Positions 11,912 through 36,583 of a stretch of 36,837 bases of DNA are shown piece after piece. Each line of letters begins with the position of its first letter. The first letter of the stretch is position 1. The notes beneath the pieces were generated by a model, which worked only from the letters and a program-made list of their open reading frames with translations, was not told the DNA's origin and searched no databases. This DNA is from a bacterium (GTDB taxonomy: Bacteria > JAJVIF01 > JAPKYR01): the NCBI GenBank assembly GCA_026394215.1, contig JAPKYR010000197.1, forward strand, positions 1-36,837, in the 5' to 3' direction. The position numbers and the translations under genes were made by a program.

Positions 11912-14900
11912 TTATTCATAATAATCCGCGAACCAGAAGCCGAGAGCATCCTGGCCAGGACACATTAGATCGCGATCGCTGATATTGGCAGCCGGGTTGA
12001 TGGTCATCGATGGCCATACTGTGCCGCCGTAATAAGCGGTGTCGATCAGGCTCATGGTCTTATCGTACTTATGAATTTCAGCAGTGGTGGTTGATGTTCT
12101 ACCGTAAATAATGATATGGCAATCTTCATTAGGGCTGACATGGTCGATCTCGATATCGCCGTAGATCGCATAACCGTAAGCTGAACTGGACTCATAGTCC
12201 AGGTTGGTGAACAGGGATCCGACAGTCACCACGTTTGCAAGAGTGGCGATATTGAATCCCTGAACTCGTCCGAGACCATCAGGACCGGCATCGAAGATGT
12301 ACAGTAGCTGATCCGTGATGTCGATTGCGATATCGAAGATATCGTACTCGTTTCCGGTATAAGTATTTATGTCGTAGTGTACCCAGTTGTTGTAATAGGA
12401 CGGAGCGCCGACGTAATTTCCATGCCAGATGTTAACATTGGCGGTATCGCTGGTTTTTGCGACAATCCAGAGGTCGCCGTTGGAGTTGAAGTCGGCAGCC
12501 ATTATCTTGGCAGACGCACCAATATTGTAAGTGTAGAGCACCGGGTTACCGGCAAGCATTGTTGCATCGACCAGGCGAATTGTGCCAGGCTCATCTGACG
12601 TTACTACGGCTACATAGCTATCCAATGGGCTGGCATCAAGTGAAGTCACGATAACGGTACCAGTTTCCGGGCCGCCGGTCTTGACGGTGTAGATATTGTC
12701 ATCGATCGGGTTGTTGCTGTCCGCATTGGGATTGAATCGTGTCAGGCTGTGATAGCCGCCCTGTACGATTCCGTGACCTTTGAATACGCCGGCTTCGAAG
12801 TAAGCGATATCGGCGCGAGGCACAATTGAGAATGCAATATTGGAGTAACCTGCGACAAGACTACGGGTCGATGCCGGATCGAAAATATTAAACATGTGGA
12901 TGCCCTGGGCGCATCCGGTCAGAGTGACCGTAATATGGATAGGCGTGGCGTAGACAATGTTGCCTTCATTGTCAGTGGCTCTCAGCAGGACATCGTACTC
13001 ACCAGGAGCATCATAGGAAATTGCCATAGTAGTGCCGGTATGGTCGACAGTGAATGTGAGACCATCCCAGTCGGCATCCCAGTCAAGTGTCAGTCCGGCA
13101 AGGCCGCAGTCGCCATCCGTTGAAGATGAGCCGTCAAAGTTGAACGTATCATCGGTAGTACCCTCGGTTTTATCGACTGTCGAGACAGCAGTCGGGGTCG
13201 TGTCGGTGACAGTAACCGAAAGTGAAGTAGTACCAACTTCTCCATCATCGTCGGTAACCATGAATCCAACCGTGTAGTTGTCAGGTGTATTGAATGTATG
13301 GAATACATCGGTGCCTGACTCATCGTAAGTACCGTCATTGTTCCAGTCCCATTCATAACTGACAATCAAGCCTCCGTCAGGATCGTACGAGCCATCGTCC
13401 ATAAATTCGATTGACATGCATTCGGTCGGGTTTGTAGTTGAAGGAATAAATGTAGCCTTGGCAATTGGAGGTACTGTTCCGACGTGGATTGTGTCGAGAG
13501 TGTACGTGTCTTGAGCGCCTTCATCGTCAGTTACTCTGAGTTTTGGAGCGTAGTCGCCTGGTGCTGAATAGGAATAACTGACTATATCGCCGGACAGGTC
13601 GTATGTGCCGTCGCCATCAACATCCCACTCGTAATCTGCGATGTAATTGCCATCGCAGTCGTTATCCGTCGATCCTGTTCCATCAAATTCTACGGATTCG
13701 CCGATAATTACATCGTACTTATCAGCCACGCCATAGGCTGTCGGATCGTTCTGTCCGACAGTGATCATCGAGAGATCGACTTCATCGGTGTTTCCTTCGT
13801 TATCGGTAACACGGCAGGAAGGAATCCTGTTTCCCATACCATCGTAGCTGTACTTGACTTTGCTGTCGTCCACGATCCATGTGCCGTCACCTTCGAAATC
13901 CCACTCATAGAGAGCAATGCCGCCGTTTCCGCAGAGTCCGTCGTATGATTCGGAAGCGTCGAAGTTTACTTCCTCACAGACATTGACGGCAGTTTTGTCG
14001 ACGGTCGCAACCGCTGTCGGGGCAGTATCCGCGATTTCAACATCGAATGAAACCGTGTCGGTGCTGCCTTCATTATCGGTGACCATCAGACTGCCGTTAA
14101 CAGTTTCCGGATCGTTATATTCCCAACTCGGGGACGGTCCCGTGGTTTCGTATGTGCCGTCGCCGTCAAGATCCCAGTCGTAGCTGACGATAAAATCGCC
14201 GCTGCAGTCCTGATCGTAAGAACCCGTTCCGTCGAACTCGACGGTATCGCATTCATCTACGTAGTAGACCGTCTGGTCCGGAACAGCGACCGGGTCGAGA
14301 TCGACAACGGTGACTGTATTGTTCACAGTATCGGTTAGGCCATTTGTATCTGTGACACGAAGAGTGATGCTATGGTCGCCGACAGTATCGTAGGTCCAGA
14401 CTGTGTCAGACGTTGTACCGAAATAATCGTAAGTTCCGTCGTTGTCGAAATCCCAGTCATAATTTGAGATGGGGGAGTCGCCAGCGGTTGAACATGATGC
14501 ATCGAGGAAGAACTGCTCGCAAACGATCGGGTCGTCCGCCGGAGTAATGAAGCATGCGGTTGGACCGGTCAGATCGGAGATATGTACATCGACTGTATCC
14601 TGGGCTGTGCCGTCTTCATCGTCCTGGACTTCAAGTGTGACAGTGTAATCGCCGGCATAGTCGAAAGCGAATTCGACATTGATGTCGTAAGCGTCCCACG
14701 TGCCGTCGTCATTGAAATCCCATCGATACTCAACGATTTCCATGTTGTCGCAGTCATTATCGTGAGAGTTGGAGCCGTCGAAGAAAATGGACTCGCCGAT
14801 CTTCGCGTTGGTCTTGTCGGCAGTAGCGACTGCAGTCGGCAGTACATTGCTGACCGTGATCGACGGAAGATCGACTTCATCGGTGTTGCCTTTGTTATCC

Positions 14901-17900
14901 GTAACGCGGCATGAAGGAATCCTGTTTCCAACGTCATCGTAGCTGTAACCTGGGGTAGAAGAATCGACAACCCAATTGCCGTCGCCTTCGAAATCCCACT
15001 CATAGAGAGCAATGCCGCCGTTTCCGCAGAGTCCGTCGTATGATTCGGAAGCGTCGAAATTAACATCTCCGCAAACATCGATTTCGGTAATATCGACTGT
15101 TGCTACAGCGGTCGGCGTCGTATCGCTGACTTCAACCGTGAACGCGGTTGAATCCGTACTGCCTTCATTATCAGTGACCATCAGACTGCCGTTAACAGTA
15201 TCCGGATCGTTATATTCCCAACTCGGGGTCGGTCCCGTGGTTTCGTATGTGCCGTTGCCGTCAAGATCCCAGTCGTAGCTGACGATAAAATCGCCGCTGC
15301 AGTCCTGGTCGTACGAACCGGTGCCGTCGAAGTTGGCAGTACCGCATTCACCCACGTAGTAGACCGTCTGGTCCGGAACAGCGACAGGGTCGAGATCGAC
15401 AACTGTAACTGTCCCTATCGCATCATCGGAGTAACCATTTGAATCCGTAACCTGAAGCCATATGTCATGGTCGCCTGTTTCGCTAAAGGTCCATGATGCA
15501 ATCGGGCTTGCGCTGGAGTAATCGGCAGTGCCGTCTCCATCGAAATCCCAATCATAGTTCACGATTGGGGCATCGCCCTCGGTGGAGCATGAGGCGTCGA
15601 GGGTAAATTCAGCGCAAACTACCGGATCGGGTACCGGACCTTCGAAACATGCGGTCGGGCCGGTTATGGAAGTAACATTAATTTCCATAGAATCGGTGTC
15701 AATTCCGCCTTCATCATCAGTAACCCTTAATTGCGGGTAGTAAGTTCCAAAAACCGAGTAGGAGTGTGTTGTGTTCGGACCGGCATCGACCCAGTACATA
15801 CCGTCACCCTGGAAGTTCCACTCATACATTGAGATTTCAGCGCCATCGCAGTCATTGTCGAGTGAGCCGGAGCCGTCGAAATTAATGACTTCATCAACCT
15901 GGACGTCAGTCTTATCGGCAGCGATAACCGCTGTCGGAAGGACGTTATTGACCGTTATCGTCGGGAGATCGACTTCATCGGTGTTGCCTTCGCCATCGGT
16001 TACCCGGCAGGAAGGAGTGAAATTCCCGACATATTCAAAGCTGTAGCTGGGGGTAGAAGAATCGACAACCCAGTTGCCGTCGCCTTCGAAATCCCACTCA
16101 TAGAGAGCAATGCCGCCGTTTCCGCAAAGGCCGTCGTACGAGCCGGAAGCACTGAAATCGACTGAATCGCAGACGTCGATTTCGGTAGCATCGACGATTG
16201 CAACGGCGGTCGGCATCGTATCGCTGACTTCGATTGAAAAACCGGTGGTAGCAGTGCTGCCTTCATTATCGGTAACCATAAGGTCGCCGTCGACAATTCC
16301 GGGAGTATTGTACTCATAGCTTGGATTCGGGCCGGTGGACTCGTATGTGCCGTCGCCGTTAAGGTCCCAGTCGTAGGAGATGATAATGTCGCCGTCGCAG
16401 TCCTGATCGTAAGAACCCGTTCCGTCGAACTCGACGGTATCGCATTCATCCACGTAGTAGACCGTCTGGTCCGGAACAGCAACAGGGTCGAGGTCTCCGA
16501 TTGAAACCTGGCCAATGTAAGTATCGGTGAGTCCGTTTGTATCGGTTACGCGAAGGGTAATATCAATGTCGCCGATATCGAAGAAGGACCAGACGGAATC
16601 GGGCGATGTGCCGTTGAAATCGTAAGTCCCGTCACCGTCGAAATCCCAGTCGTACTGAGAGATCGGGGCGTCGCCTGCAGTCGAGCATGATCCATCGAAG
16701 AAGACCTGTTCGCAGACGATGGGATATTCGGTTACCACGGTAAAGCATGCGGTCGGGCCGGTAGTGTCGGAAACATGAATATCGACCTGGTCCTGAGCCG
16801 TTCCGCCTTCATCGTCCTCAACCTCGAGAGTGACAGTGTAATCGCCGGCGGTAGAATAGTAGTGATCAACGGTTTCGCCGTTCGATTCAAAAACTTCGTC
16901 TCCATCGAGATCCCATCGGTAATCAACAATTTCCATATTATCGCAGTCGTTATCATGCGACATGGAGCCGTCGAACTCGACGGTTTCTCCAACCTTGACG
17001 TCGGTTTTATTTACGTCGATAACTGCGGTCGGAAGTACGTTATTGACGGTAATCTCGAGTGGGGTATCAAGAGTGTCGGTCTGTCCGTCGGTGCAAGTAA
17101 CTCTGCACTGTATTTGATGAGAATCAATAGTATCGAATGAATGAACAGCATCCGGGGTTGTAGTAAATTCATCGTAGGTGCCGTCATTATCCCAGTCCCA
17201 TGCATATTCGGAAATATTGCAATCACCGGTAGAGCAGGAGGCATCGAAGAACACCATCTCGCAGACATCCGGATCTCCGCCGCCGTACACGCTCCATGTA
17301 GCGCAGGCATGCGGGGGTTCCGATGGCTCATTGACCGCGATTTCGAGGGCGTTATCAAGCATAACGGTATCGCCCTCATCGTCCGTTACCTGAAGCTGGA
17401 CGTAATAGGTACCGGGGTCAGTGTAAGAATGGGTAACATTTTCTCCCGATGCATCGGCGTTGAAAGTGCCGATGTAATCGAAATCCCACTCGAATCCGGC
17501 GATGCTTTCGCCGTCGCAGTCATTGTCGTGCGAATCGGTACCTGAGAAATGGACGTCCTGTCCGACTTCCACTTCGTACAGATCGGCGGTCGCGACAGCG
17601 GTCGGGAGTGCATTTACCCAGGATACGGTATCTTCAAATTCACCGGTCAGCCCGGTCGAATCGGTAACGACAAGCCTTACGCAGAAATCCCCGACTTGAG
17701 TGTAGGGGAAGACTGCTATCGGGCTGTCGCTTGTGAACTCGATCGTGCCGTCGCAATTGATATCCCATTCGTATGAAACGATATCTCCATCGGGATCGGT
17801 GGAGCAGGAGGCGTCAAACGTGATGTCCTGGCATGGAATAGCGATATCGGGTTCGTATGTATAACATGCGGTGGGTTCCTGAGGAGCGGCATTAATTGTA

Positions 17901-19195
17901 ATTTCAAGCCGTTCATCCGTGGGGAGACCCAGCGTGTCGGAGAGGAGCGCATCGTTGGTAACCCTGAGGTCTACCATATACACTCCCGGGGTATCAAATG
18001 AGTGAGCGATTGTCGGGGCATCATAGACTTCGAAAATTCCATCGCCGTCGAAATCCCACTCATACAGAACAATTGAGCCGCCGTTCGGGTCATATGATCC
18101 GGTGCCGTCGAAAGTAATGTCTTCACCTGTGTAGGCTTCATATTTTGAAGCTGTTCCGACAGCGACAGGCGGTACTGGTGGCGGAATTACATTAACCTCA
18201 ATGAGAGCGTCGCCGGGGTCATCGGTAAGGTCGTCTTTGGCGCCTTCATTGTCGGTTACCGTAAGGTTGATGTATTTTGTCCCGGTAGTGCTATAGGTGA
18301 AATCAGCCGATGTACCGGTATAGTCAGTGATTCCATCTTCGTTAACGTCCCATTCATAGTTGTCAATGGTCCCGCCGTCGGGATCGTATGAACCGTTGTC
18401 CTGGACATGAACGGTTTCACCCACGATGACGGTTGGGGTAGTTGTGACACCCTTGGCAACCGGATCATAGTAAACAAGTCCGCCGACTTTGAAGCTTCCC
18501 GCAAGGTCATCGAAGATTATGATTGATAGCCACCCACCGAAAATCGGGTAACCAACGATGATTTTGGTGAAGTACTTTCCATCGGCAAGGGTTCCAGGAA
18601 TCGACCAGTCGCCGTTCAGGGTAATTCCTGAGTACGGAATCTGGAAATTGTACCATGTGTCCATAGCATCGGGAGCCAGTGGATGGCTATGCTGGTCGAC
18701 TTGAGTAGCCGAAGCGCACAGCTTCTTCAAAGTCACTGGCAAATTACTGGCTAAATTGACCTCGTAGATCATAAGATCGCCAGGCTCATATGTCGGGAAG
18801 CCGGTGCTGTCAAGGTCAGCGTTCGTATACTTCACGTTGCACTTGATCAGATTAAGCCAGGTAAGGTTGAAGCCCATCTGCGACTGGCGTTCACTTTCAG
18901 CCCTCTCCAGAGCTTTTAATTTCGGGGCCATGTAATCGATTCTGAAGTCCCAGCCTTCGCTGGTATCAACGATTGTTCCCCAGGCAAGTAATTCATTGTT
19001 TTCATCGGAAGTGTAATAGAAATTTCCGAGGATTCTACCGGTTACCGTTTCCTGGTTAGTGCCAGGGTCGGTATTTATCCCGGGGTTGGGATTCTGGTCG
19101 ACTGGAGGTGTAGTAGGACTACTACCCCCACCGGAACAACCAATTAGCATTAGGATAATCGCGATGACAAGAATTCGCGTGACATGCTGAAGCAT
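11912..19195 (-). CDS. Giant (2427 aa) multi-PKD-domain lipoprotein with C-terminal non-PKD (probably beta-propeller) domain
   Basis: Lipobox LMLIGCSGGGSS; about 20 tandem PKD-type units (PTAVATADK...V.FDGSGS.D.DC...YEWDFDGDGTYD...HSY..PG.Y.V.L.VTDDEG); C-terminus lacks PKD motifs. Confidence 0.93.
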   Translation of the reverse strand: MLQHVTRILVIAIILMLIGCSGGGSSPTTPPVDQNPNPGINTDPGTNQETVTGRILGNFYYTSDENNELLAWGTIVDTSEGWDFRIDYMAPKLKALERAESERQSQMGFNLTWLNLIKCNVKYTNADLDSTGFPTYEPGDLMIYEVNLASNLPVTLKKLCASATQVDQHSHPLAPDAMDTWYNFQIPYSGITLNGDWSIPGTLADGKYFTKIIVGYPIFGGWLSIIIFDDLAGSFKVGGLVYYDPVAKGVTTTPTVIVGETVHVQDNGSYDPDGGTIDNYEWDVNEDGITDYTGTSADFTYSTTGTKYINLTVTDNEGAKDDLTDDPGDALIEVNVIPPPVPPVAVGTASKYEAYTGEDITFDGTGSYDPNGGSIVLYEWDFDGDGIFEVYDAPTIAHSFDTPGVYMVDLRVTNDALLSDTLGLPTDERLEITINAAPQEPTACYTYEPDIAIPCQDITFDASCSTDPDGDIVSYEWDINCDGTIEFTSDSPIAVFPYTQVGDFCVRLVVTDSTGLTGEFEDTVSWVNALPTAVATADLYEVEVGQDVHFSGTDSHDNDCDGESIAGFEWDFDYIGTFNADASGENVTHSYTDPGTYYVQLQVTDDEGDTVMLDNALEIAVNEPSEPPHACATWSVYGGGDPDVCEMVFFDASCSTGDCNISEYAWDWDNDGTYDEFTTTPDAVHSFDTIDSHQIQCRVTCTDGQTDTLDTPLEITVNNVLPTAVIDVNKTDVKVGETVEFDGSMSHDNDCDNMEIVDYRWDLDGDEVFESNGETVDHYYSTAGDYTVTLEVEDDEGGTAQDQVDIHVSDTTGPTACFTVVTEYPIVCEQVFFDGSCSTAGDAPISQYDWDFDGDGTYDFNGTSPDSVWSFFDIGDIDITLRVTDTNGLTDTYIGQVSIGDLDPVAVPDQTVYYVDECDTVEFDGTGSYDQDCDGDIIISYDWDLNGDGTYESTGPNPSYEYNTPGIVDGDLMVTDNEGSTATTGFSIEVSDTMPTAVAIVDATEIDVCDSVDFSASGSYDGLCGNGGIALYEWDFEGDGNWVVDSSTPSYSFEYVGNFTPSCRVTDGEGNTDEVDLPTITVNNVLPTAVIAADKTDVQVDEVINFDGSGSLDNDCDGAEISMYEWNFQGDGMYWVDAGPNTTHSYSVFGTYYPQLRVTDDEGGIDTDSMEINVTSITGPTACFEGPVPDPVVCAEFTLDASCSTEGDAPIVNYDWDFDGDGTADYSSASPIASWTFSETGDHDIWLQVTDSNGYSDDAIGTVTVVDLDPVAVPDQTVYYVGECGTANFDGTGSYDQDCSGDFIVSYDWDLDGNGTYETTGPTPSWEYNDPDTVNGSLMVTDNEGSTDSTAFTVEVSDTTPTAVATVDITEIDVCGDVNFDASESYDGLCGNGGIALYEWDFEGDGNWVVDSSTPGYSYDDVGNRIPSCRVTDNKGNTDEVDLPSITVSNVLPTAVATADKTNAKIGESIFFDGSNSHDNDCDNMEIVEYRWDFNDDGTWDAYDINVEFAFDYAGDYTVTLEVQDDEDGTAQDTVDVHISDLTGPTACFITPADDPIVCEQFFLDASCSTAGDSPISNYDWDFDNDGTYDYFGTTSDTVWTYDTVGDHSITLRVTDTNGLTDTVNNTVTVVDLDPVAVPDQTVYYVDECDTVEFDGTGSYDQDCSGDFIVSYDWDLDGDGTYETTGPSPSWEYNDPETVNGSLMVTDNEGSTDTVSFDVEIADTAPTAVATVDKTAVNVCEEVNFDASESYDGLCGNGGIALYEWDFEGDGTWIVDDSKVKYSYDGMGNRIPSCRVTDNEGNTDEVDLSMITVGQNDPTAYGVADKYDVIIGESVEFDGTGSTDNDCDGNYIADYEWDVDGDGTYDLSGDIVSYSYSAPGDYAPKLRVTDDEGAQDTYTLDTIHVGTVPPIAKATFIPSTTNPTECMSIEFMDDGSYDPDGGLIVSYEWDWNNDGTYDESGTDVFHTFNTPDNYTVGFMVTDDDGEVGTTSLSVTVTDTTPTAVSTVDKTEGTTDDTFNFDGSSSTDGDCGLAGLTLDWDADWDGLTFTVDHTGTTMAISYDAPGEYDVLLRATDNEGNIVYATPIHITVTLTGCAQGIHMFNIFDPASTRSLVAGYSNIAFSIVPRADIAYFEAGVFKGHGIVQGGYHSLTRFNPNADSNNPIDDNIYTVKTGGPETGTVIVTSLDASPLDSYVAVVTSDEPGTIRLVDATMLAGNPVLYTYNIGASAKIMAADFNSNGDLWIVAKTSDTANVNIWHGNYVGAPSYYNNWVHYDINTYTGNEYDIFDIAIDITDQLLYIFDAGPDGLGRVQGFNIATLANVVTVGSLFTNLDYESSSAYGYAIYGDIEIDHVSPNEDCHIIIYGRTSTTTAEIHKYDKTMSLIDTAYYGGTVWPSMTINPAANISDRDLMCPGQDALGFWFADYYE
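13465..16753 (-). repeat. Higher-order tandem repeat inside the PKD gene: three copies of about 1096 bp, each four PKD domains
   Basis: CATGCGGT(C/T)GG(G/A)CCGGT recurs at about 14553, 15649 and 16746; GTAGTAGACCGTCTGGTCCGG recurs at 14261, 15356 and 16454. Confidence 0.85.
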
Positions 19196-31586: not shown

Positions 31587-33059
31587 ATGGCTATAATTAT
31601 TCAAAAATTTATTTTGACAGTATTGCTGGTAAGCCTTATCACAGGTTCCTCAGGGAGTGGCGATCTTATCTGGGTTAAGAGTGCAGGGGGCACATCTGGC
31701 TTTATTATGTGTAATGGGATCACAGCACTTTCGGACAATTCGACAGTTGTGACAGGGGCATTTTTGGGATCGGTCACATTTGGATCAGGGGAACCAAACC
31801 AGACTACCTTGGTTCCAACCGGATATGAGGACATCTTCATTGCGCGTTACAACCCAGACGGTAAACTCGCATGGGCGAAGCACTCAGGAGGAGCAGATGA
31901 ATATAGCACGGTACAAGGTAATGGAATCACGACGCTTTCGGACAATTCGACAGTAGTGACAGGGCATTTTACTAGTTCAACTACGTTCGGACAGGATGAA
32001 CTGAACCAGACAGTCCTGATTTCCTCCGGAGGTGACGATTTCTTCATCGCGCGTTACAACCAAGATGGTTCACTCGCCTGGGCAAAAAGCGCTGAAGGTG
32101 CATCTGGTATTGATTACGGCCTTAGAATCACGACACTTTCGGACAATTCGATAGTTGTGACAGGAGTGTTTTATGGATCTGCAACATTCGGGCTGGGTGA
32201 GCCGAACCATACAAACCTGACTTCCGCTGGTTATACGGATATTTTCATCGCGCTTTACAATCCGGACGGTACACTTGAATGGGTGAAGCGCGCTGGAGGA
32301 GCAGATTATGAAGCTAGCAATGGAATCACGACACTTTCGGATAATTCGACTGTCGTAACAGGAGTGTATTATGACTCGATTACGTTCGGACCGGGCGAGC
32401 CGAACCAGGTAACTCTAGCATCTGCTGGAGAATCGGATTTCTTCATCGCGCGTTACAACCCCGATGGCACACTCGCCTGGGCGAAAAGCGCCGGAGGAGC
32501 ATCTTTTGATCAGGGCAAGGGAATCACGACATCTTCGGACAATTCGACAGTCGTAACAGGAGCGTTTTATGACTCGATTACGTTCGGACCGGGCGAGCCG
32601 AACCAGGTAACCTTAAATTCAGCTGGAGAATCGGATTTCTTCATCGCGTGTTACAACCCGGATGGCACACTCACTTGGGCGAAAAGCGCCGGAGGAGTAT
32701 CTATTGATGTGGGTTCTGGAATCACGACACTTTCGGACAATTCGACAGTCATGACAGGATGGTTTAGCAAATCCGCTACATTCGGATCGGGCGAGGCGAA
32801 CGAAATAGTCCTGAATTCCACTGGTTTTATGGATATATTCATCGCGCATTACAACCCGGACGGAACACTCGCCTGGGCGAAACGCACCGGAGGAACAAAT
32901 ATTGGTACTGGTTCTGGAATTACGGCACTTTCGGACAATTCGACAGTCGTGATAGGGAGGTTTCAAGGATCGGCCACATTCGGGCCGGGCGAAGCCAACG
33001 AGACAGTCCTGAACTCCGCTGGTCTAACCGATCTCTTCATCGCGCGATTTAATCCTTAA
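31587..33059 (+). CDS. Exported seven-bladed beta-propeller protein (SBBP-like repeats)
   Basis: Seven repeats of about 66 aa: GITTLSDNSTVVTG.F.GSATFG.GEPN...L.SAG..D.FIARYNPDGTLAWAKSAGG; N-terminal signal. Confidence 0.88.
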   Translation: MAIIIQKFILTVLLVSLITGSSGSGDLIWVKSAGGTSGFIMCNGITALSDNSTVVTGAFLGSVTFGSGEPNQTTLVPTGYEDIFIARYNPDGKLAWAKHSGGADEYSTVQGNGITTLSDNSTVVTGHFTSSTTFGQDELNQTVLISSGGDDFFIARYNQDGSLAWAKSAEGASGIDYGLRITTLSDNSIVVTGVFYGSATFGLGEPNHTNLTSAGYTDIFIALYNPDGTLEWVKRAGGADYEASNGITTLSDNSTVVTGVYYDSITFGPGEPNQVTLASAGESDFFIARYNPDGTLAWAKSAGGASFDQGKGITTSSDNSTVVTGAFYDSITFGPGEPNQVTLNSAGESDFFIACYNPDGTLTWAKSAGGVSIDVGSGITTLSDNSTVMTGWFSKSATFGSGEANEIVLNSTGFMDIFIAHYNPDGTLAWAKRTGGTNIGTGSGITALSDNSTVVIGRFQGSATFGPGEANETVLNSAGLTDLFIARFNP

Positions 33060-34032: not shown

Positions 34033-34653
34033 TTATTTACTTCTTAAAAAATCGGAGATTGTCCTTAATAGCCACTCTAACCCGCCGAGTTGCGCCACGA
34101 TATAAATAATAAATAATATCCAGGTAATATTCGCGGTGAAAATACTCTGCCTGACCATTTTTTCCTGATGGGCGAATCCCGGCAGCGGATATTTTTCCCT
34201 TAATGATCCAAGCTCGGTCGCGTAGGGAATTCTTATCTCCCGCGATAAATTCAGCGGCTCATTGTAGTTCGCCTTTTCCCCGCCGACTTCCTTCAGCAGA
34301 CGATATGAAATTCCAATCAGTTTCCTTGCGAATTCGATTTCTGAATTCAGTAGAAGCATTTCCACAGGATTTACCGGGGTGGTTATCTCCATGAGGATGA
34401 CATAAAAATCGGTGATCCTGTTAAATGCCCTGCCTATATTGATTTTTCGTTTTGTCTTTTGATTCTCTGCCGCGAGGTCGAACTCAAGATCCCTCGCTCG
34501 GTCATGAAGCTCGCTCACCGCTGGGGCAATGACTTTCAGAGGCTCCTTCTCGGTGGCATCCGGACCCGCGATCTGATCGAGGTATTTGAAGATCGCGTCA
34601 AGATCGGGATTCGGATTTCCGGTTGCTGATATGATTGTCTCGAGAGCGACCAT
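34033..34653 (-). CDS. Hypothetical protein with C-terminal TM segment (tail-anchor-like)
   Basis: Helical soluble part followed by TANITWILFIIYIVAQLGGLEWLLRTI. Confidence 0.7.
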   Translation of the reverse strand: MVALETIISATGNPNPDLDAIFKYLDQIAGPDATEKEPLKVIAPAVSELHDRARDLEFDLAAENQKTKRKINIGRAFNRITDFYVILMEITTPVNPVEMLLLNSEIEFARKLIGISYRLLKEVGGEKANYNEPLNLSREIRIPYATELGSLREKYPLPGFAHQEKMVRQSIFTANITWILFIIYIVAQLGGLEWLLRTISDFLRSK

Positions 34654-34812: not shown

Positions 34813-34869
34813 AGTTCAGATCAACAAATTCTGGACAATATTAATTTTCCTGGTGGATTTGGTCTAACT

Positions 34870-35060
34870 CCTTGACTGGTTCATCCGGGAAGTATACACT
34901 CCAGCCGACGCCCCGTGGTGTGGGGAAGTGGATTAATCCCGCTGCCCCCGCAACTGTATCGGGTGACGCCTTTCAGATTAAGCCACTGGTTCGAAAGAAT
35001 CGGGAAGGCATGAAAGGCGGACGACCCCGTAGCCAGGATACCCGCACAAATGAGGGCTCT
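34870..35060 (+). promoter_or_regulatory. Cobalamin (AdoCbl-type) riboswitch
   Basis: GGGAAGTGGATTAATCCCGCTGCCCCCGCAACTGTA ... AAGCCACTG ... CGGGAAGGC ... GACGACCCCGTAGCCAGGATACCCGC matches the conserved core and B12 box; boundaries approximate. Confidence 0.95.
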
Positions 35061-35119
35061 GCCGTACACGCTTTCGGTGGGAAGGCGACGCGGAACTACA
35101 GAAAATAGTTTCCTCGCGC

Positions 35120-35144
35120 CCGTCCTTCACCGGACGGATTTTTT
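35120..35144 (+). terminator. Intrinsic terminator of the riboswitch expression platform
   Basis: CCGTCC-TTCACC-GGACGG followed by ATTTTTTATTT; lies between the aptamer and ATG 35183. Confidence 0.85.
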
Positions 35145-35182
35145 ATTTATTAAATAATAAAAATCAAAAGTCGAGGTGCTTC

Positions 35183-36583
35183 ATGCGTATCCACACATTT
35201 TTACTCTCAGTATTATTTATTTCAGTATTGGCCGTTGCCGCCGGATGTTCGGGATCGAACCCGATTCTCCCGGCCAATGGCAATGACCCGAAAACTCAGG
35301 TCGAATTCAGTTCGCGAATGCTTGCAAGGTTCGATTCCGAATCGGGTATTGTATGGTTCAGCGCGCCATCGGGCACATTGAAACCAAACTCCGCGGTGGT
35401 AATCACATTTCCGGGACAACAGGAGATACATCTTGCGTCGAACGGCGATGGAAGCTTCCTGTATCGATTCGCGGGCAATGAAAATTCGTTTTTCGATGTT
35501 GAATGGTACGAATTTTCCGGCATCCCTCATGCGGATGAAATTCATGTGACTGACCCGCTTGATGATTTATCACCGCATATCGGCGAAACAGGGCTTTACT
35601 GCAATCGGCTTTACGATGAAGGGAATTATGTATGGGTTGTGAATTCCGGCGACGATGAACTCGCTCCATATGATCCGAATAGTCTGGAAAAATTGGATTT
35701 TCCGGTACTAACTCCCGCTCAATCGAATCCGTGGGATGCGGAATTTTATACACCTTCCAGCGGACTTATTACAACTCTTTTCAACGGTGTATTCTGGTTC
35801 GATAACTCGACCGGATTGGTCGAAAATATAGATTCAAATGGGCATCGCGATTTCGCAAGTCCGAATGGGGTAACTATTACCGGGTCTGATGGATGGGTTA
35901 CAAATACGAATCCTCTCGGTTATTTTCCGACGTCCCATGGTCCCGGCTGGGTGAGCGACATCGAATTGAACACAAAAAAAGTGATCTGGGAACTCGATAC
36001 CCCGTGGCTGAATCCGCAATATATTATAAATGATGGAAATTATATTTATATTTCATGTACCGGAACAGTCGATTTCACTCCGCCGGATTATCTTGCGACG
36101 GCGATGACAGACGGGGGAGTAATGGTCCTTGATCCCGGATCGCATGAAGTTATCAAATCGTTCGATCTTGGTCTTTGCGCGCCCGGAGTTATGGCTCTTA
36201 GTCCGGATAGCAAATACCTCTATATCGGAAGCGGAGTCGCGGCTTTGATTTTCAGAATTGATCTTGAGAAAGGAGAAATTCTGAATGGTTTGTCGAATCC
36301 GATTGTAATCTCAGATTATCCGGGCTCGTATATTCCCTTCCTGACAGTCGATGAAAATGGATTGATGGCGACGGCGAGTTTCAACGATGATGTCATCCGG
36401 TTTGTTGATTCATATACCGGGCAGCTTGATCCATATCCATTTTTTAAACCGATAGAGCTTCATCCGGATAACCCAGATTCCCTCTGGGGTCCGCAGGATG
36501 CGGTCTTCACAAAAAAGAACGGCCAGTCGGGTCTTCTGTTTATAACTACCGTGGACAGCGCGTTTCACTGGTTGGAAATATAA
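35183..36583 (+). CDS. YncE-like beta-propeller lipoprotein, predicted cobalamin-responsive (BtuG-like candidate)
   Basis: Lipobox AVAAGCSGS; propeller-like segments YVWVVNSGDDELAPYDPNSLEKLDFPVL, SPDSKYLYIGSGVAALIFRIDLEKGEIL, MATASFNDDVIRFVDSYTGQL; directly downstream of the B12 riboswitch. Confidence 0.85.
   Translation: MRIHTFLLSVLFISVLAVAAGCSGSNPILPANGNDPKTQVEFSSRMLARFDSESGIVWFSAPSGTLKPNSAVVITFPGQQEIHLASNGDGSFLYRFAGNENSFFDVEWYEFSGIPHADEIHVTDPLDDLSPHIGETGLYCNRLYDEGNYVWVVNSGDDELAPYDPNSLEKLDFPVLTPAQSNPWDAEFYTPSSGLITTLFNGVFWFDNSTGLVENIDSNGHRDFASPNGVTITGSDGWVTNTNPLGYFPTSHGPGWVSDIELNTKKVIWELDTPWLNPQYIINDGNYIYISCTGTVDFTPPDYLATAMTDGGVMVLDPGSHEVIKSFDLGLCAPGVMALSPDSKYLYIGSGVAALIFRIDLEKGEILNGLSNPIVISDYPGSYIPFLTVDENGLMATASFNDDVIRFVDSYTGQLDPYPFFKPIELHPDNPDSLWGPQDAVFTKKNGQSGLLFITTVDSAFHWLEI

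Follow-up and report, generated by a model that had tools for sequence, protein, structure and literature searches.

Why would a vitamin B12 riboswitch stand ahead of one lipoprotein gene, with no receptor or transporter gene beside it? The question is raised by the 3' end of the window, the whole stretch of 36,837 nucleotides analysed here, which is an entire contig. We consider it likely that the locus, taken as a whole, encodes a riboswitch-controlled lipoprotein that captures B12 and passes it on to a receptor. The elements of the locus are:

34840..35063, + strand: cobalamin riboswitch aptamer RF00174 (cmscan, 72.6 bits, E=3.2e-16; 5' edge loosely aligned)
35069..35087, + strand: hairpin CGCUUUC-GGUGG-GAAGGCG, competing with the antiterminator (strand folding; identical in the same-genus copy, G001)
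35076..35131, + strand: antiterminator, a long hairpin (duplex -27.2 kcal/mol, partial-transcript fold; arm limits approximate)
35120..35137, with a T-rich run to 35147, + strand: intrinsic terminator CCGTCC-TTCACC-GGACGG (folding; conserved in G001)
35183..36583, + strand: lipoprotein gene, 466 aa, BtuG-like beta-propeller, P0001 (open reading frame, homologues, riboswitch linkage)
35183..35248, + strand: signal peptide with lipobox and predicted lipidated Cys22, sequence MRIHTFLLSVLFISVLAVAAGC
35315..35548, + strand: N-terminal Ig-like beta-sandwich domain, about residues 45-122 (AlphaFold2 strands at 47-121)
35549..36580, + strand: beta-propeller domain, about residues 123-466 (AlphaFold2 pTM 0.76; Foldseek matches to PDB propellers)

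The B12 aptamer named in a preliminary description of this DNA was confirmed by the Rfam scan: the match covers the whole RF00174 model (1-189 of 189), has a gathering threshold of 31.5 bits to exceed, and is the only match at that threshold in the whole window. A search of the host genome (3.45 Mb in 321 contigs) found no other cobalamin riboswitch. A promoter-like site at 34872-34900 was discarded because it overlaps the aptamer and promoter-like sites are rarer here than in shuffled sequences. Between aptamer and gene lies an expression platform of a terminator and a competing antiterminator, conserved in G001, the one same-genus genome available. The segment GGTGGGAAGGCGACGCGGAACTA, upstream of the terminator, pairs with TAGTTTCCTCGCGCCCGTCCTTCACC in the computed duplex of -27.2 kcal/mol; the latter segment takes in the terminator loop and 5' half, so that the 3' arm of the antiterminator overlaps both. 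Alternatively, GGTGGGAAGGCGACGCGGAACTA folds as the local hairpin at 35069-35087, which is probably the switching hairpin and may act as a kissing loop. The G001 leader is 85% identical to that of the window over the aligned bases, and its antiterminator and terminator arms are all unchanged, with substitutions in the platform confined to the loop, which supports a transcriptional off-switch. That B12 is the off signal is our inference from how riboswitches of this class are known to behave. G001 has a second riboswitch locus, headed by a different leader (L026:15700-16050), in which a small hairpin, ACGGGCCACGGACCCGT, follows the riboswitch. Because this hairpin adjoins a ribosome-binding-like AAGGAG, translational control is suggested there, unlike the terminator before the window gene.

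The frame at 35183-36583 is the next open frame after the aptamer on the same strand, with no gene in between, as had been described; the interval holds the terminator. Its lipobox, LAVAAGC, predicts a lipidated N-terminus as in BtuG. Past Cys22 the protein reads CSGSNPIL, and no Bacteroidota lipoprotein export signal, the charged motif of the BtuG kind (PMC6143338), was found there. Upstream of the riboswitch lies an opposite-strand gene (34033-34653), and only 254 bases of the contig follow the stop codon; that the gene has no partner downstream is thus shown by G001, not by the window. That genome carries the ortholog directly behind its own cobalamin riboswitch, in two contig fragments with 50% and 67% identity to the window protein, and the following gene, glycosyltransferase-like, is convergent. 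The riboswitch in G001 therefore serves a single gene, and the window riboswitch most likely does the same. The word "lone" in the preliminary description holds for this transcription unit; it does not hold for the organism, which has a TonB-dependent receptor, a paralogous propeller and BtuF/D/C. Two other proteins of the window may be recorded: one of 490 aa near the gene (31587-33059), which has DUF5122 propeller repeats and no riboswitch of its own, and one of 2427 aa (11912-19195), in which some 18 PKD domains were recognised and which is probably a large surface protein.

The proposed propeller was only marginally visible to Pfam (SGL, 20.2 bits, under the 26.3 cut-off), and P0001 gave no Pfam match to DUF5074 (PF16819), a family that falls below threshold in L028 and L030 and above the cut-off in L093. 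AlphaFold2 modelling of the whole protein with four relatives gave an Ig-like N-terminus, which the preliminary description had missed, with the rest of the chain all-beta (mean pLDDT 63, pTM 0.63). Residues 121-466 alone reached pTM 0.76 and mean pLDDT 67, with N-terminal blades of low confidence, and this model matched seven-bladed PDB propellers in Foldseek with TM up to ~0.77. The Ig-like domain also occurs in the G019, G309 and Ww346 homologues (alignment A6). In the structural comparison with BtuG, a full-length Foldseek search placed 8okv (BtuG3 with cyanocobalamin) and 8bmz (BtuG2 with adenosylcobalamin) within the top 30, but WD40, YncE and designed propellers ranked level with or above them. 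The fold is thus that of a propeller and not specifically of BtuG, and the fold search does not, in our view, prove that the protein is BtuG. At pI 4.1 the mature protein is strongly acidic, and the binding face of BtuG2 is negatively charged (PMC10404256); by analogy, the low pI is compatible with a BtuG2-like binding face, for which it is weak evidence.

Whether the homologues also stand behind riboswitches was asked of 392 sampled genomes, of which 27 contained matches to the window protein at E≤1e-3. Cobalamin riboswitches were then located in the matching genomes, and a match was called linked when it lay on the same strand at most 7 kb downstream of one. With the window and the G001 ortholog left out, and with places that are partly non-independent, 11/13 places at E<1e-6 were linked (0.016 expected for random positions), as were 15/20 at E<1e-4 (0.026 expected); among the weak matches between 1e-4 and 1e-3 the count was 2/7. 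A linked member was present in 11 of the 13 families examined. Only position counts here, since 311 of the 392 genomes have a cobalamin riboswitch and mere co-presence is uninformative. The two exceptions below 1e-6 are G301 and G094. The former looks like a contig break, because its receptor is split over two contig ends: one contig ends with riboswitch and receptor start, another with receptor fragment and propeller. G094, the best distant homologue by E-value, comes from a genome in which no cobalamin riboswitch was found, and the same is true of G145 (E=2.3e-6). The association of homologues with B12 riboswitches expected by the preliminary description was thus observed, in the G001 ortholog as well. 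Other searches yielded less: a single-protein search of genome contigs (genome_contigs) gave no matches, a 4-row alignment recovered only four loci, and an 11-row alignment was too diverged to yield patterns.

The order riboswitch - TonB receptor - propeller was found in nine relatives (G012, G032, G077, G183, G185, G196, G221, G321 and G322). In G019 the riboswitch is followed by BtuD, BtuF, BtuC, receptor and propeller, and G309 has the same order, with BtuD not seen. In G019 a single frame of 1007 aa (L029:8341-11364) matches BtuC as well as a TonB-dependent receptor; it is possibly a fusion or a frame running through two genes. The second G001 locus reads riboswitch - large lipoprotein - receptor - propeller. 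For both receptors tested (n=2) the best NCBIfam model was TonB-B12. A Planctomycetales record (L108) has receptor and propeller in succession, and a search of this fragment yielded no riboswitch. Riboswitch - propeller units lacking a receptor were seen in the window, G001, G003 and G284, where an acyl-CoA dehydrogenase comes next; such units recur in several unrelated lineages. G108, cut off by its contig end, and a more distant propeller in G037 (contig C20) may be further cases. Besides the propellers, a lipoprotein domain of the LIC_13355 family (NF033170), or one closely related to it, turns up repeatedly in several lineages at loci with cobalamin riboswitches (L039:10523-12628, L026:13688-15748, L036:6896-9217, L096:6502-8793, L093:336-2240), once fused to a propeller, and possibly represents a further family of B12-capture lipoproteins. 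G002 and G003, two genomes of the same class, have more cobalamin riboswitches; what follows these is a large lipoprotein or a propeller, with no receptor (L034:6375-8942, L035:5598-8021, L037:7894-11638); the proteins include one of 855 aa with SBBP repeats, one of 807 aa with a C-terminal propeller, and two of 630 and 621 aa.

The preliminary description saw no TonB receptor, BtuF or BtuCD, which is correct within the window but not for the genome: the search it proposed located a receptor on contig C120 and BtuF/D/C on contig C29. The receptor is the only TonB-dependent one in the host genome, and TonB-B12 ranks third among several TonB families in its NCBIfam matches. It is preceded by a large lipoprotein and followed by a propeller lipoprotein paralogous to the window gene. 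Contig C120 breaks off at the point at which the riboswitch stands in G001, and the two share a short piece of leader. The genome also encodes one BtuC-like permease, one BtuF-like binding protein adjoining an ATPase, and, on contig C60, a MetH with pterin-binding, homocysteine methyltransferase and B12-binding domains. No CobB/CobQ-type amidotransferase was found in the host genome, which is ~93% complete; the best match to PF07685 is by sequence a PdxT-like glutaminase and was rejected as evidence of B12 synthesis. The simplest reading is that the host is a B12 scavenger, absence being no proof at ~93% completeness.

These parts can be joined into one mechanism. At low B12 the empty aptamer would allow the antiterminator to form, transcription would read through past the terminator, and the one lipoprotein would be made. 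With plentiful B12, the competing hairpin next to the bound aptamer would break the antiterminator and the terminator would stop transcription. The lipoprotein would be exported and lipid-anchored in the outer membrane, where, by analogy with BtuG, it may bind corrinoids on one face of the propeller and hand them to the single BtuB-like TonB-dependent receptor of the organism; BtuF/CD would then take them up to supply MetH and further B12 enzymes. The chief alternative is a generic lipoprotein of the YVTN/YncE or lactonase type that does not itself bind corrinoids and has another role under B12 shortage, either an envelope function or a B12-independent substitute. Cobalamin riboswitches can also control B12-independent isozymes, and the weak SGL and QH-beta/YncE-type matches, together with a fold match that is unspecific for BtuG, would suit such a protein. 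We nevertheless hold it to be unlikely: of 13 strong homologues, 11 stand in loci headed by a riboswitch, for the most part together with receptors or BtuCDF, and it is the weak generic matches that are mostly unlinked.

Where the captured corrinoid goes is a separate matter. Capture followed by hand-over has a sub-case differing in that last step, and our confidence in the two overlaps: the protein may bind corrinoids without serving as a receptor lid, as a free B12 sponge on the surface or on vesicles, made in excess of the receptor. This idea is modelled on a proposal for free XusB, excess XusB being thought vesicle-bound (PMC13142918), and BtuJ proteins have been found on vesicles (PMC13398666). 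It would account for a separate riboswitch unit away from a receptor locus that has its own propeller, and for the separate lineage of the window gene. A maximum likelihood analysis placed the window gene together with its G001 ortholog on a separate branch (100/99), and the receptor-linked propellers from these genomes fell elsewhere in the tree, whose deep branching was poorly supported; a recent duplication of the receptor-linked paralogue (G000) is therefore unlikely and was set aside. In most relatives, however, the homologue adjoins a receptor, and for the window protein we find the excess-binder reading rather doubtful. The broader proposition, that a self-standing, B12-repressed corrinoid-capture propeller unpaired with BtuB outside Bacteroidota is such a free sponge, is offered as a tentative possibility. 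Least probable of all appears a periplasmic relay, in which the lipoprotein would carry corrinoids from the receptor to BtuF and not be a surface protein. The absence of a Bacteroidota-type export signal after Cys22 and the operon shared by the G019/G309 homologue with BtuF/C would fit it, but the BtuG analogy and the receptor-adjacent order of most loci argue against it. The preferred reading thus remains capture and hand-over to the receptor.

As a candidate, the B12-repressed capture propeller of the preliminary description gains strongly from the positions of its homologues, which are linked to riboswitches, BtuB-like receptors and BtuCDF, but this support does not reach as far as membership in BtuG proper. 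Most probably, the window protein is a stand-alone, diverged form of the B12-catching BtuG proteins known from gut Bacteroides. The term warranted for this candidate B12-binding protein is "BtuG-like", not "BtuG", because P0001 alone shows no match to BtuG, DUF5074 or the Bacteroidota export signal and its fold is unspecific. Roughly a dozen bacterial families have BtuG-like propellers behind cobalamin riboswitches; records from at least two of these families are labelled Planctomycetota, and in some cases the riboswitch controls a propeller unit that has no receptor. Should these proteins bind B12, its capture with the help of lipoproteins would be a wider strategy of outer-membrane bacteria and not a gut speciality, and the riboswitch would offer an easy way of finding others.

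BtuG1/2/3 of B. thetaiotaomicron (PMC6143338, PMC10404256) are likewise propeller lipoproteins under cobalamin-riboswitch control. Wexler et al. (2018; PMC6143338) found BtuG homologues only in Bacteroidetes. Homologues of the window gene adjoin a BtuB-like receptor, and the family profile covers BtuG structures almost end to end. A profile of nine of the propellers matched BtuG structures at ~1e-9 to 5e-11. With 23 members, the profile matched BtuG1 (8blw) at 5.8e-24, BtuG3 (8p97) at 6e-18 in one nearly full-length stretch from residue 1, lipobox included, and BtuG2 (8bmx, 3dsm) at ~1e-15 (8bmx, 1.5e-15), with entries identified as in PMC10404256. An archaeal propeller, the S-layer YVTN protein 1l0q, outscored BtuG, so that part of this signal comes from the common repeat. 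The window protein differs in having diverged too far for single-sequence search (no BtuG match for P0001 at E≤1), in its extra Ig-like N-terminal domain and in lacking the Bacteroidota export signal; its gene has a single-gene riboswitch unit of its own. As to a place beside btuB, the window gene has the riboswitch but not the receptor, whereas the G001 paralogue and most distant homologues have such a place.

E. coli YncE and the archaeal S-layer YVTN propellers are alike in fold and YVTN-type repeats, but we know of no link between them and cobalamin riboswitches or B12 uptake genes. XusB is another propeller lipoprotein, seven-bladed and serving as lid and carrier for a TonB-dependent receptor, but it belongs to DUF4374, handles iron siderophores and has no reported cobalamin riboswitch (PMC13142918); no XusB entry was among the matches listed for the 23-member profile. 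A literature search, with subscription papers mostly outside its reach, found no paper on stand-alone riboswitch-controlled propellers. BtuJ/DUF4465 and BtuH are accessory B12-capture lipoproteins in riboswitch loci (PMC13398666, PMC8941943) but differ in fold, DUF4465 being a jelly roll, and the window gene has no such domain. The BtuJ family, an unrelated B12-binding DUF4465 family of eight clades, often has PF16819 propellers as neighbours (PMC13398666, 2026), and that report foreshadows the present result.
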